Origin: Treponema sp. | GTDB taxonomy: Bacteria > Spirochaetota > Spirochaetia > Treponematales > Breznakiellaceae | Length of the DNA: 43,603 nt | NCBI GenBank assembly: GCA_031283105.1 | Contig: JAITCL010000068.1 | Location: 1 to 43,603 of the forward strand | Direction of reading: 5' to 3' | Shown here: one piece after another, positions 22,885 to 26,680 of the stretch | How positions within the stretch are numbered: the stretch's first letter is position 1 | Layout: each line of letters starts with the position of its first letter | Made by a program: the position numbers and the translations under genes | The notes under the pieces: generated by a model | Database searches by the model: none | What the model saw: the letters and a program-made list of their open reading frames with translations, nothing else | Told to the model about the DNA's origin: nothing

Positions 22885-23540
22885 CAGCGCATCTCCCCTA
22901 ACAATTTTTCAGAATCGGAAAAAATGATTCCCGAGTCCCGCATCTGCGCTACCGCTTTTTCTACCGAGCCGGAAGGGTAGCCCACTCCCCGCACCGCGTC
23001 TTCGACGATTATCGTATTGAAGCCCAATCTTCTGCAATCCATCGCGCTGTAAAACACGCAGTAGTCGGTTGCCAGTCCGCCCATGATGACCGTTTGAATG
23101 TTCATCTGCTTAATGCCGCCTTCAAGGCCGGTGGCGGTACAGCGGTCATTTTCAAAAAAAGCCGAATAGGAATCCAGCCCCGCGCGAAACCCTTTGCGGA
23201 TAATCAGGCTAACCGGGTCAAGGTTAAGTTTATCGTGAAAAGCTGCGCCCTTAGTTCCCCGTACGCAGTGATCCGGCCAGAGAACCTGCCCCTGAACAGT
23301 GTCAAGGTCAATAATATCCCCCGGATTTTTACCGCTATGCGAGGAAGCGAAGGAAATATGCCCCGCCGGATGCCAGTCCTGTGTAACGGCAACACGCCCC
23401 CCCGCCGAGGCAAAAGCGGCGGCCAGCTTGTTAAGCGGGGCAATAACCCCGTCGCCGTCCTGAACGGCCAGTGCGCCGCCCGGGCAAAAATCGTTCTGCA
23501 CGTCAATTATCAACAACAGTGTCGTCTGAATATTAAACAT
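22884..23540 (-). CDS. pncA: Nicotinamidase
   Basis: A 218-residue isochorismatase-fold amidase that hydrolyses nicotinamide to nicotinate. Catalytic Asp is in LIIDVQNDFCPGGALAV, the metal site in TQDWHPAGHISFASSH, the Lys in IRKGFRAGLDSYSAF, and the nucleophilic Cys in GGLATDYCVFYSAMDC. The ATG at 23540 is chosen because a TATAAT ends six bases before it and because family members begin just before LLIIDVQNDF; the longer frame adds 17 residues that run through the promoter. No ribosome site is present. Confidence 0.93.
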   Translation of the reverse strand: MFNIQTTLLLIIDVQNDFCPGGALAVQDGDGVIAPLNKLAAAFASAGGRVAVTQDWHPAGHISFASSHSGKNPGDIIDLDTVQGQVLWPDHCVRGTKGAAFHDKLNLDPVSLIIRKGFRAGLDSYSAFFENDRCTATGLEGGIKQMNIQTVIMGGLATDYCVFYSAMDCRRLGFNTIIVEDAVRGVGYPSGSVEKAVAQMRDSGIIFSDSEKLLGEMR

Positions 23541-23546
23541 AGAAGC

Positions 23547-23575
23547 ATTATATTGTTTATAAGGCAAAATATCCA
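23547..23575 (-). promoter_or_regulatory. Leaderless promoter of pncA-pncB
   Basis: On the minus strand TGGATA (23575-23570), 17 bases, perfect TATAAT (23552-23547), then six bases to the ATG. Confidence 0.6.
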
Positions 23576-23824
23576 GATGGGGGGCAAACAATGCACGGCA
23601 AAGCCGTGTGGATGAATAAATTTATCATGCCCCAGCGCCGGACAAGGTAACCAAGATGAGTAAAAGGAGGTGAGCTTTAGCTCACCGTCCGCGCTGCGGT
23701 CAAAGGGAGGTATGTAGCGGGTCAGAGAGAAGTTTATTAAACATGGGACAATGCGAGATGAGAAAGCAGGGAAGAATTTAACCACGGAGGACACGGAGGG
23801 GAAAGCTCTCCCCCTCTACCATCA
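23576..23824. other. Gene-free spacer with hairpins
   Basis: No gene is seen. CACGGC-AAA-GCCGTG (23594-23608) and GGTGAGC-TTTA-GCTCACC (23669-23686) are perfect small hairpins. The mobile-like element A begins at the right edge. Confidence 0.55.
23781..23799. repeat. ACGGAG spacer repeat
   Basis: ACCACGGAGGACACGGAGG, two units of the 9-base ACACGGAG repeat, preceded by TTTA as in the other copies. Confidence 0.7.
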
Positions 23825-24145
23825 CAGGGCAACAGCATTTACTGTGATAGATAATATAATCAGCCAAGCCGCCTGAGAGAGGTCGGCGGGGCGGCAAAAA
23901 AATTCCGGGAATTCTCTGCCGGAAGAGACCAGAGAGTAAAAGCAAAAACTAGGTGTACAGTAACAGCCCAGCACTTAAATACGACATGATTTCATAGTAA
24001 TTACGATATGCTTAGTAATTTAAGTGCTGGGGGGCTCTGTAGGCAGATTCTCCCGGTTTTTTGCCGCCCCGCGCGGCCTTCTCAGGCGGATTTCTGCCTT
24101 ATGTGATAACTTATTATAGAATAAAAAAGTACATGCTGTTGCCCT
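23825..24145. mobile_element. Element A: strongly self-complementary MITE-like element
   Basis: About 320 bp with no coding potential. The ends are inverted: AGGGCAACAGCATTTAC (23826-23842) against the complement of 24129-24145, 16 of 17 matching. Inside, arms of about 55 bp (23866-23920 and 24042-24099) pair through CCGCCTGAGA, CGGGGCGGCAAAAAA and CCGGGA. Between them lie a 42-base block (23927-23968) shared with the element at 25131 and a perfect 14-bp stem (AGCACTTAAAT with ATTTAAGTGCT and flanking C/G). I see no target duplication around this copy, which may be old or not inserted by transposition. Confidence 0.65.
23866..24099 (+). ncRNA. Candidate structured RNA within element A
   Basis: If transcribed, this part folds into a long basal stem, a central block containing AAAAGCAAAAACTAGGTGTA then CAGTAACAGCC, an internal hairpin (23968-24029) and a downstream GGGCTCTGTAG. 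The copy at 25178-25416 has the same order with different stem sequences. Strand is set by the block orientation and is a guess; transcription is not shown. Confidence 0.35.
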
Positions 24146-24156
24146 TAGCGGGGTAC

Positions 24157-24185
24157 TTTACACATTCTCAAAAATTGGCTATATT
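24157..24185 (+). promoter_or_regulatory. Promoter of the outer-membrane-like protein gene
   Basis: TTTACA (24157-24162), 17 bases, TATATT (24180-24185); the start codon is at 24204 behind AGGAGA, giving a leader of about 12 bases. It begins 11 bases after the end of element A. Confidence 0.65.
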
Positions 24186-24203
24186 CTTGACAGGAGAAAT
24201 ATA

Positions 24204-24815
24204 ATGCAAAAGAAAGTAATATTGGCGTTGCTGATGGCGGCGTTGCTGGCGGGTGGTGCATTCGCCCAAGGATTTTCGATGAGCGCCGGCGCCGGTATGC
24301 TCTTTGATTTGAGCAGCAACAACGGTGTCAAGTATGATGGCGGGTATAGCGGGATGCGGATACTGAGTCTTGGCTTTTTCGGCTTTTTCGACGCCACCTA
24401 TGCGGAGGTTGATGTCAGCTTCGCCTATGGAAATATAAGAGGTATGGGGGATGGTGATGTCAGAGGCTATGACAGCCGAGTGATGCAGCTCGGTTTTACC
24501 TTCCTGGGCAAGTATCCCTTTGAAGTGGGTGATTTTATCATCTTCCCCCTCTTGGGGTTTGATTACAACATGGTTGTTTCCCACACGGTGGCCGGCTATG
24601 CTGACCCTCACTACGCAAAATTAAGCCAGCTTGGCGCACTTGCCGGCGTGGGCGCCGACTTTTATATGACCGATTCCCTGTACCTCAGAGGGGAAGGTAT
24701 GTTCCATCTGCGTTTTCCTTCCACGGCCATGAGAGAAGCAGCATCTGCAATAGATGGGGCAGCCACCTTTGGTATGGGCCCCCGTTTAAAAGCTGCTGTA
24801 GGCTACAAGTTCTAA
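24204..24815 (+). CDS. Outer-membrane beta-barrel-like protein
   Basis: A 203-residue exported protein. A clear signal peptide (MQKKVILALLMAALLAGGAFA, cut before QGF) is followed by alternating amphipathic strands rich in Gly, Tyr and Phe (ATYAEVDVSFAYG, QLGFTFLGKYPFEV, LYLRGEGMFHLRF) and a terminal Phe (VGYKF), the usual signal for barrel insertion. It resembles the OmpA-like or OmpW-like small barrels common in treponemes, but I cannot name a family. The gene has its own promoter and ribosome site and stands alone between repeat elements A and C/B. Confidence 0.8.
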   Translation: MQKKVILALLMAALLAGGAFAQGFSMSAGAGMLFDLSSNNGVKYDGGYSGMRILSLGFFGFFDATYAEVDVSFAYGNIRGMGDGDVRGYDSRVMQLGFTFLGKYPFEVGDFIIFPLLGFDYNMVVSHTVAGYADPHYAKLSQLGALAGVGADFYMTDSLYLRGEGMFHLRFPSTAMREAASAIDGAATFGMGPRLKAAVGYKF

Positions 24816-24852
24816 GAACCGGACTACTTAATTGTAAAAAGGAGCTGTCCAT

Positions 24853-24861
24853 TGGGCGGCT
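24853..24861. repeat. 9-bp direct repeat, left flank of elements C+B
   Basis: TGGGCGGCT here and at 25465-25473, exactly flush with the CAGGG and CCCTG ends of the segment between them. This looks like a target-site duplication. Confidence 0.7.
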
Positions 24862-25464
24862 CAGGGTAACAGCATTTAGTTTTGACCATATAAACCACAG
24901 CCGAAGGGGGCGCTACGGGGTAGCGGAAACGCTTGTAGAGTTCCGCGGCGCACTCGGCTTGCTAAAGCAAACCGGCATTAGTGTAATGCAGTGGAATTTA
25001 TTGTGCGCCGGAACCGGTCGCATTAGTCCGTCAACGCCCCTTGGCGGGACGCTTTTTTCTGTTCCCACCTACGGAGCATCACAAATGTTTCCGCTACCCG
25101 CCCACCCCCTCCGGCTGGTGTCTATTGTTACAGGGCAACAGCATTTACCCTGTTACATCGGTTATAGGGTAGAATAAGGCGGCACAGGGAGACAGTGCGG
25201 GGTTGCCAAAACATTATGGGATTCTTCGACGGAGCAGACCAGGGAGGAAAAGCAAAAACCAGGTGTACAGTAACAGCCGCACGGCACGAGAAACAAGAGA
25301 ACACGCTGATAATGGAATTACCCATAGTTATCAATGATGCACAGAAACCGTGCGGGGGCTGCGTAGTTGAATTCCCCCATCTGTTTTGGCAGCCCCGGCG
25401 CTGTTCCCTGTGCCGGTTTACGCACTATAGGTATGTAAATACAAAAGTAAATGCTGTTGCCCTG
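24862..25464. mobile_element. Elements C and B: 603-bp double MITE-like element
   Basis: The segment starts CAGGGTAACAGCATTTA and ends with the inverse TAAATGCTGTTGCCCTG, and is bracketed by TGGGCGGCT direct repeats. It contains two folded modules. C (24862-25130) has arms 24896-24955 and 25054-25117 sharing GGGTAGCGGAAAC. B (25131-25464) has perfect 19-bp ends (25130-25148 and 25447-25465), arms with GGCACAGGGA (25181-25190) against 25405-25414 and GCCAAAAC (25205-25212) against 25383-25390, and the conserved core at 25237-25278. No reading frame is convincing, so it would be non-autonomous. Confidence 0.7.
25178..25416 (+). ncRNA. Candidate structured RNA within element B
   Basis: Same plan as 23866-24099: long basal stem, core block AAAAGCAAAAACCAGGTGTA then CAGTAACAGCC, an internal stem (CCGCACGG 25277-25284 with CCGTGCGG 25348-25355), then GGGCTGCGTAG. 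The stems differ from element A yet remain paired. Function unknown. Confidence 0.35.
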
Positions 25465-25482
25465 TGGGCGGCTCCTTTTTTG

Positions 25483-25512
25483 TTGACAAAAACCGCCTTT
25501 ATCGGCTATAGT
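25483..25512 (+). promoter_or_regulatory. Promoter of the sugar ABC ATPase gene
   Basis: TTGACA (25483-25488), 18 bases, TATAGT (25507-25512), ahead of a 55-base leader with GGGAGG. Confidence 0.65.
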
Positions 25513-25573
25513 ACCAATTACCGTCTTTTCCTGTGAAAAGGCTGATAAAATAACCCTTTAGGGAGGCCAGCGT

Positions 25574-26680
25574 ATGGCAAAAGTAGAATTGAAAAGCATT
25601 TCGAAGGTGTATGATGGCAATGTTCGGGCGGTGGAAAACGCCAACATTGTGGTTGAGGACAAGGAATTTGTCGTTTTGGTAGGGCCGTCGGGCTGCGGTA
25701 AGTCCACCACCCTCCGTATGGTAGCCGGACTTGAGGAAATCACCGAAGGCGAACTGTACATTGACGGCGAACTGATGAACGATGTTCCCCCCAAAGACCG
25801 GAACATCGCCATGGTATTCCAGAATTACGCCCTGTATCCCCACATGAGCGTTTATGAAAACATGGCGTTTGGTCTGCGGATTAAAAAAGTCCCCAAAGAC
25901 GAAATCGACCGGCGGGTCAAAGATGCGGCAAAAATCCTCGATATCGAGAAATTGCTGGATCGCAAACCGAAGGCCCTTTCCGGCGGTCAGCGGCAGCGTG
26001 TCGCGGTAGGACGCGCCATTGTCCGCAACCCCAAAGTCTTCCTCTTTGACGAACCCCTTTCCAATCTTGACGCCAAACTGCGCGTGCAGATGAGGGCGGA
26101 ACTCTCCCGCCTGCATTTGGGCCTGAATGCCACCATTATCTATGTTACCCACGATCAGGTGGAAGCCATGACTATGGCCAACAAAATCGTCGTAATGAAA
26201 GACGGCCTGGTGCAGCAAATCGGGTCGCCCCTGTATCTGTACAATCATCCGCACAATAAATTTGTCGCCGGTTTCATCGGTTCTCCGCCCATGAACTTCC
26301 TCACCGTTAAAGTAGAGGAAGACGGCGGCTTGTTACTTTTGGACGAAGGGTCTTTCAAAATCAAGCCGGATCCGTCCCATGCCGACTACATTAAAAATTA
26401 CATCGGCAAGGAAGTTTTCTTCGGTATTCGTCCTGAGGACATGAATTTTGTCGAAAACGAAGAACATAACAGTTTTGCCGTAAAAGTAACCGTGGTTGAA
26501 CCGCTGGGCGCGGATATTCACCTTTGGCTTACCACCGGCACCCAGCCGATGGTCGCCCGGACAGAGCCCCACCATAATTTCACGGTCGGCGACACTGTCC
26601 GATTCTGTCCCCGCATGGAAAAAGCCCGTTACTTTGACAGGGAAACAGAACAGGCAATCCTGCCGGGCCCGAACAACTAA
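25574..26680 (+). CDS. ugpC: Sugar/glycerol-3-phosphate ABC transporter ATPase (UgpC/MsmK/MalK type)
   Basis: A 368-residue ATPase of the CUT1 carbohydrate importer group. Walker A GPSGCGKST, Q-loop VFQNYALYPHMSV, signature LSGGQRQRVAVGRAIVRNP, Walker B VFLFDEPLSNLDAKLR and the switch His in VTHDQVEAM are complete. The C-terminal ~120 residues are the TOBE/OB regulatory domain (FFGIRPEDMNF, VVEPLGADIHLWL). No permease or binding protein is near, so it may serve several sugar importers, as MsmK does in Gram-positives; that is inference. Confidence 0.92.
   Translation: MAKVELKSISKVYDGNVRAVENANIVVEDKEFVVLVGPSGCGKSTTLRMVAGLEEITEGELYIDGELMNDVPPKDRNIAMVFQNYALYPHMSVYENMAFGLRIKKVPKDEIDRRVKDAAKILDIEKLLDRKPKALSGGQRQRVAVGRAIVRNPKVFLFDEPLSNLDAKLRVQMRAELSRLHLGLNATIIYVTHDQVEAMTMANKIVVMKDGLVQQIGSPLYLYNHPHNKFVAGFIGSPPMNFLTVKVEEDGGLLLLDEGSFKIKPDPSHADYIKNYIGKEVFFGIRPEDMNFVENEEHNSFAVKVTVVEPLGADIHLWLTTGTQPMVARTEPHHNFTVGDTVRFCPRMEKARYFDRETEQAILPGPNN

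Follow-up and report, generated by a model that had tools for sequence, protein, structure and literature searches.

Results

Genes and folded elements in the window

The window, that is, the whole stretch of 43,603 nucleotides analysed here, corresponds to contig C116 of a draft host genome of 2.79 Mb (167 contigs, 94.6% complete, 7.1% contaminated). Element A (23825-24146, plus strand) is a hairpin bounded by inverted repeats, with an arm of type a and an inner hairpin of type I, and is flanked by an isochorismatase-domain gene (22887-23591, minus strand) and by a gene for a 203-aa protein without a Pfam match. On the other side of the 203-aa gene, elements C and B adjoin in a block of 603 bp (24862-25464), which is flanked by this gene and by a MalK-type ABC transporter ATPase gene (25574-26677). 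Element B (25131-25464, plus strand) is a hairpin with an arm of type b and an inner hairpin of type II, while element C (24862-25130, minus strand) is a type-c arm shell in reverse orientation and without the core of A and B.

The end sequence CAGGGCAACAGCATTTAC starts at 23825 in A and at 25131 in B, and the end of C at 24862, CAGGGTAACAGCATTTAG, differs from it at 2 of 18 bases, in agreement with the common end that the first-pass annotation had described for the three elements. The inverse ends lie at 24129-24146 and 25447-25464, so that A ends at 24146 and not at 24145 as annotated.

The conserved module of A (23908-24050, plus strand) matches our covariance model R1 with 157.1 bits. Its 5' side (23916-23927) consists of the 5' strand of helix P2 (CTGCC, 23916-23920), the internal loop GGA (23921-23923) and the 5' strand of P3 (AGAG, 23924-23927); its 3' side (24035-24046) consists of the P3 strand CTCT (24035-24038), the internal loop GTA (24039-24041) and the P2 strand GGCAG (24042-24046). 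Between them lie a 42-base core (23927-23968) with AAAAGCAAAAACTAGGTGTACAGTAACAGCC, most of which is left unpaired in the predicted fold, and the hairpin P4 (23967-24031), whose arms are CCCAGCACTTAAAT (23967-23980) and ATTTAAGTGCTGGG (24018-24031). The module of B (25218-25374, plus strand; 96.9 bits) has the same arrangement, with TCGAC (25226-25230), GGA (25231-25233) and GCAG (25234-25237) on the 5' side (25226-25237), and CTGC (25359-25362), GTA (25363-25365) and GTTGA (25366-25370) on the 3' side (25359-25370). Its core (25237-25278) differs from that of A at 3 positions, where about four had been counted before, and its P4 (25277-25355) pairs CCGCACGG (25277-25284) with CCGTGCGG (25348-25355). 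Both internal stems thus lie where they had been annotated, and GGGCT..GTAG comes next in A as well as in B.

The claim that the three elements follow one plan and form one family stood in part. R1 recovers both A and B, and C has the same kind of shell; however, R1 gave no match to C, neither in the genome scan nor in locus L001 covering C, and in place of the core C carries a different folded insert of 122 nt (payload D, GGGAAC...GCGCCGC; 24945-25066, minus strand), kin to a separate repeat family. Compared with dinucleotide shuffles, fold z-scores were -11.8 for A and -9.7 for B on the core strand, and -8.1 for C on the minus strand; no shuffle of any of the three reached an equally good fold.

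A promoter scan of 23600-25700 returned 5 sites, against 2.4 expected. In neither A nor B is the core strand read from any of them, and the sole promoter-like site inside an element is a minus-strand site of B (25451-25424). Two others are found directly 3' of the elements, at 24157-24185 (TTTACA-17-TATATT) after A and at 25483-25512 (TTGACA-18-TATAGT) after B, so that both elements may stand just upstream of gene promoters.

Copies in the host genome combine different arms and inner hairpins

When the host genome was searched by blastn, A, B and C each gave dozens of matches, many of which are incomplete or fall on the opposite arm. If up to 3 mismatches are allowed, the genome contains the core pattern 66 times and the reversed control 0 times. 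R1, which was built from 39 of 49 dereplicated modules (A3 was drawn from 40 selected loci), found at least 101 matches there with 150 of 1117 candidates scored, the weakest being partial. By reading, we could tell apart arms of types a, b and c and inner hairpins of types I, II and III, which the copies combine in various ways; further core variants occur within the same frame.

Several copies depart from this scheme. The type-b copies L069 and L086 (contigs C88 and C161) have an extra hairpin within the core, between ACC and GGAAC, and thus nested palindromes. L161, L162 and L164 are shells with the same ends in which the core is lost or shortened, including a form of 119 bp, and in L159 and L162 a type-c-like shell surrounds another palindromic payload around CACAAGCC...GGCTTGTG. 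In L080, L081, L082 and L084 the tip of a type-b shell is occupied by a type-c element with the right border GTTGAG, which by eye we read as replacement of the tip by a nested element.

The elements have features of MITEs

Ends of type CAGGGCAACAGCATTTA (up to 2 mismatches) occur 101 times in the host genome, against 0 for the control, and were present in 18 of 20 fetched regions. Like MITEs, the elements are small, occur in many copies and contain no coding gene, and A, B and the C+B unit have terminal inverted repeats of 18 bp. Among 49 inverted-end pairings drawn from the fetched loci, some of which have an end in common, five are surrounded by 9-bp direct repeats with at most 1 mismatch, two of them exact, where 0.04 would be expected. 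One of the exact duplications, TGGGCGGCT, flanks C+B (24853-24861 and 25465-25473), whose inverted ends are CAGGGTAACAGCATTTAG and GTAAATGCTGTTGCCCTG. This indicates that C and B, two divergently oriented hairpins, moved as one unit of 603 bp. Composite forms of similar size recur: 11 of the 49 pairings span 513-613 bp, and L006, L044 and L052, which are among them, combine a type-c module with an a- or b-type module in the opposite orientation. A itself has no clear target duplication. In the regions read, which cover part of the host genome and six ORFs inspected by eye, we did not find a transposase between such ends; one end pair lies about 1.1 kb apart around a gene that, on inspection by eye, does not encode a transposase (L150; its right end is weak). 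Based on these findings, A and B are very probably copies of a mobile, MITE-like element.

The outer repeats themselves are of several kinds. By reading, we found CAGGGCAACAGCATTTACC in the host genome and in Coa324, CTMAACTTGACCCACAG in Coa324 with its reverse complement flanking host type-c copies (e.g., L047, L079 and L083), and GGTTTGATCTCGCCAC in Th196; the same core is therefore carried by several shells with unrelated outer repeats. We take these repeats for shell ends, target duplications having been examined for the CAGGGCAACAGCATTTACC kind alone.

The elements show no preferred orientation towards their neighbours. Using a crude ORF caller, 111 of 185 elements had both neighbours (the other 74 were set aside), with the upstream gene in the same or the opposite direction in 57 and 54 cases and the downstream gene in 62 and 49. 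These near-even counts make a cis-regulatory role unlikely, and we rejected a cis-acting UTR element on the same grounds.

A conserved frame is shared among related genomes

Across genomes the elements converge on a frame that is approximately 5'-GGAATTC-YCYGCC-GGA-GNAG-AC-[tip]-CTNC-GYA-GGCRG-AYTC-TACA-3'. It forms a module of 140-160 nt, made of an outer arm, the internal loop GAATTC/AYTCTA, P2, the internal loop GGA/GYA, P3 and a replaceable tip, which ranges from a few bases (L191) to about 120 nt and consists, in the long forms, of the core of about 40 nt followed by hairpin P4. Outside the frame, the arms extend over tens of paired bases and are often common to the copies within a genome but not to different families, 160 elements giving 76 arm clusters. 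Over 73 clusters, three bases of the loop GGA/GYA are kept in 97-99%, and the others in 85%, 86% and 41% (the T of GYA), although the search by letter patterns that supplied the elements for this set, and for the outer-arm wobble count over 76 clusters below, is itself biased towards conserved letters. Some copies have lost loops: L215 has a perfectly palindromic tip, and in L211 and L221 GGA stands opposite TCC. A fixed centre with free ends is the reverse of the plain MITE pattern.

With up to 16 candidates per genome scored, R1 matches were found in at least 30 of 196 genomes, the host genome included, and in at least 10 of 88 genera; a covariance model, the kind of check proposed in the first-pass annotation, thus does match homologs in relatives. 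A first reading of the frame in relatives took in 26 of 30 matches, and the frame has been read in elements of seven genera (g1, g3, g7, g16, g39, g40 and g47), of which g16 and g40 were assigned through identical contig positions in two of the motif searches. A 22-base frame motif (up to 2 mismatches) is present in 43 of 389 genomes, by our own count 37 of them among the 195 inside the family of the window and 6 among the 194 outside; the latter six are single hits, like those of the control (4 hits in 389 genomes). Three or more motifs are found in 16 genomes of eight genera (again our own count); G076, a genome of 4.1 Mb in a single contig, carries 42 of them. The spread is patchy, from 0 to 56 motif copies inside one genus, in genomes many of which are incomplete MAGs.

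The exact motif, searched in 84,980 species (a search that may leave out records very near the window), was found in 65 stretches, and the title of each names Treponema, Spirochaetaceae or Spirochaetia. It was absent from 2.9 million viral contigs, and B had no match among the phages and plasmids searched. Judging by isolate names, the carriers would come from termite or cockroach guts, and record names, together with PMC13067680, point to Breznakiellaceae as their family.

Pairing is preserved through changes on both sides

In the set used for P2 and P3 (164 elements found; one per arm cluster, leaving out clusters whose first member had a flank below 40 nt, hence 73), 98.3% of the cells of the nine pairs are standard, against 86.3% in shuffles. 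Both sides are changed in 76 cells, whereas 1000 shuffles yielded 17.7 such cells on average and never more than 30. The R1 alignment of 56 matches gives a similar result, although it was fitted to the structure and kinship remains in its shuffles: 94.1% of 1328 cells pair, against 68.7% in shuffles and 30-48% in slid-structure controls, and 331 cells are changed on both sides, against 91.7 in shuffles. Within families of copies, such changes are about three times more frequent than expected under independence (911 against 269, 1006 against 319 and 1631 against 559). Pairing with changed bases, as described in the first-pass annotation, thus far exceeds what shuffles and slid controls show.

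On the other hand, only 29 of the 1328 cells are G-U pairs, and double changes with few G-U can arise by template switching; covariation alone is therefore no proof of an RNA. According to PMC8794818, template switching during replication can give rise to compensatory changes in RNA genes, and it could have made part of the covariation that we observe.

Wobble pairs lean to the core strand in part of the module. On this strand, P2 and P3 contain 14 G-T against 2 A-C (73 clusters), and the outer arms, with one element per cluster, 73 against 45 (p = 0.006; 160 elements in 76 clusters, flanks below 60 nt or weak arm alignments being left out). In relatives alone the outer arms give 78 against 49 over 85 elements. 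By contrast, P4 has no strand bias (15 against 14), and over all 25 pairs the count is 29 against 25. In host-genome families, the ratios are 25:6 for P2/P3, 103:50 for the outer region, 35:42 for the element ends and 57:39 for the apical helices (13:18 in family cI alone). A cruder count that includes loops gives 219:207 in relatives and 658:407 in the host genome. The bias in P2/P3 and the outer arms, along with internal loops that are retained in most cases, speaks for selection on a strand-specific fold, but P4 gives no such sign.

Known RNA classes and protein partners

At the Rfam 15 gathering score, neither A nor B nor the tested elements of relatives had a match, in line with the initial remark that no known RNA class was recognised. 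Relaxed E-values added three hits with E of 1 to 3.7, none acceptable. In relatives, below threshold, long-hairpin miRNA families were reported over the elements of L109 and L115, and two tRNAs in L106 lie outside the element. With regard to IS110 bridge RNAs and OMEGA RNAs, we observed neither a recurrent protein beside the elements nor a match in Rfam, which includes HEARO. We also considered a reprogrammable guide in the core, whose middle differs between copies, and rejected it: many copies at different sites have one core, and by eye those of relatives drift around a GGNTACARTAAAAGCC-like string.

No recurrent neighbouring protein was found beyond frames of the repeats themselves: 128 of the 129 members of the large neighbour-protein cluster overlap element motifs, and across genomes no cluster exceeds 4 members. 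This overlap, together with the 113-aa frame that runs across B and is open over 80 codons in only 17 of 31 type-bII copies, led us to reject a coding element. Searches for RVT_1 and Y1 transposase covered 117 genomes, with G076 and G084 apparently outside. In the element-rich genomes G001, G016 and G025 (incomplete MAGs, 67-83% complete) neither was matched, while G000 has one RVT_1 match, and Y1 transposase is matched three times in G000, twice in G034 and once in G044. Within the limits of these incomplete MAGs, three element-rich genomes without either make RVT_1 or Y1 unlikely as a necessary partner. Neither the neighbouring genes nor RVT_1 in these three genomes supports a retron or another RT-linked RNA.

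Discussion

Our results suggest that a structured RNA, or a folded DNA strand, is preserved inside several kinds of mobile elements. The best explanation that we can offer, on which our confidence as a whole is evenly balanced, is that A and B represent a mobile, non-autonomous element of the MITE type in termite-gut spirochetes. A transposase acting in trans would move the shells, and the single strand 5'-GGAATTC...CTCC-3' would fold into a rod, whose internal loops might be bound by a factor, also in trans. Such binding may help the element to persist, and the module would be kept for this reason. The folded strand would most likely be an RNA, produced when transcription from the surroundings runs through a copy; alternatively, it could be a single DNA strand folded at replication. 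The parts of this model differ in strength. That the module has a selected, strand-specific fold is likely. That the strand is RNA rather than single-stranded DNA seems to us somewhat favoured, and as to which of the two profits, we lean only slightly towards the element over the host. The early proposal of selection on RNA structure hence survives in modified form: the pairing excess is real, and a selected fold agrees with the strand bias of P2/P3 and the outer arms and with the mostly kept loops, if not with P4; yet the elements are mobile MITE-like repeats and not stand-alone RNA genes.

An alternative view, unlikely to our mind, is that of a plain DNA palindrome, in which template switching (quasipalindrome correction) and recombination keep the arms of a MITE complementary and the folded strand has no function. 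It would account for double changes being common and one-sided G-U changes rare, for tips that are loop-free or perfect palindromes (L211, L215 and L221), for the exchange of arms and inner hairpins between copies and for the lack of wobble bias in P4, and template switching is published for RNA genes (PMC8794818). However, correction should also erase the internal loops, and three bases of GGA/GYA are 97-99% kept over the 73 clusters. Nor would it predict that the wobble bias of P2/P3 and the outer arms is strand-specific, or that a largely unpaired core is kept at 66 places with at most 3 mismatches. These observations speak for the selected fold, which a single DNA strand recognised during replication or transposition could also display, as attC sites, REP/RAYT hairpins and single-strand origins do. 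Such a DNA hairpin would fit the many copies in near-even orientation, a fold that is biased to one strand, retains its loops and leaves the tip free, and the lack of promoter-like sites directed at the core strand in A or B; but Y1 transposase was unmatched in G001, G016 and G025 (MAGs 67-83% complete) and no neighbouring gene recurs, and we regard this alternative to RNA as quite unlikely.

If the strand is RNA, it may still serve the host, as a family of regulatory RNAs (sRNA or mRNA element) spread by MITEs. A frame kept in many genomes is what one would expect from it. We nevertheless consider it very unlikely, given that the flanking genes show no orientation bias, that the short forms have had their tips replaced or lost, and that the distribution is patchy, with 37 of 195 genomes of the family and 0 to 56 copies in one genus, though many of these MAGs are incomplete. 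Conversely, in a bolder version of the element-serving model, which we think rather unlikely, the module would be a mobile structured RNA that lives on DNA transposons as a hyper-parasite or serves them as a common cofactor. A single core would sit in several unrelated MITE families (CAGGGCAACAG..., CTMAACTTGACCCACAG..., GGTTTGATCTCGCCAC...) of one bacterial family and, by way of its loops, act in trans in favour of the carrier elements, for example by bringing in a host protein or by damping the cost that these elements impose.

Several known elements resemble those described here. Integron attC sites are imperfect palindromes as well: certain bases always stay unpaired, the tip varies and the fold is specific to one strand; unlike our elements, they have much shorter arms and are tied to an integrase and gene cassettes. 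NEMIS are MITE-type palindromes with folding transcripts and, like Correia and ERIC, are defined by their ends; we know of no loop-bearing core with freely varying arms among elements of this type. The bcr1 repeats, in turn, belong to one lineage with one kind of end, and no core is known to be common to several shells.

As described in PMC10969869, Correia and ERIC are likewise MITE-type palindromes with folding transcripts, those of Correia being cut by RNase III, and bcr1 of Bacillus cereus is a stem-loop repeat of 147-167 bp with traits of a mobile element (PMC2267715). The pneumococcal BOX, RUP and SPRITE, present in 125, 110 and 30 copies in one genome, are also small, interspersed and non-coding; according to PMC3049150, they have predicted stable RNA folds and are thought to be mobile and MITE-type, and BOX is modular (boxA/B/C). 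Compared with them, the elements of the window belong to another lineage, their centre is conserved within different outer repeats and their pairing is backed by both-side changes across genera. Our repeats thus belong with structured small interspersed MITE-type repeats such as BOX, and their unusual trait is the folded core common to different shells. Among the papers found by our searches, no title or abstract describes them.

Small bacterial repeats are usually seen as passive transposon remnants that are recognised by their ends, whereas here the centre is kept and ends and arms are free, within different shells and in several genera. Should the fold work as RNA, it would define an RNA family outside the present classes, rich in natural variants, and would offer a test case in which to study the mutual dependence of structured RNAs and transposons. 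The repeats also constitute a natural data set for telling selection on RNA structure from palindrome repair by template switching.

A further observation concerns the insert of C. At up to 3 mismatches, payload D is present at 14 places in the host genome and at none in 116 other genomes. It measures 123 nt in each of 10 pattern-matched copies (L026, L028, L029, L049, L077, L082, L089, L090, L093 and L098), against 122 nt in C, and by eye its hairpin tips carry paired changes. Several copies lie within ACCACGGAGGACACGG repeats. Another repeat, AACCACGGAGGACACGGAG, located at 23780-23798 in the window and found again next to several elements at other loci, is the landing site of some payload D copies.
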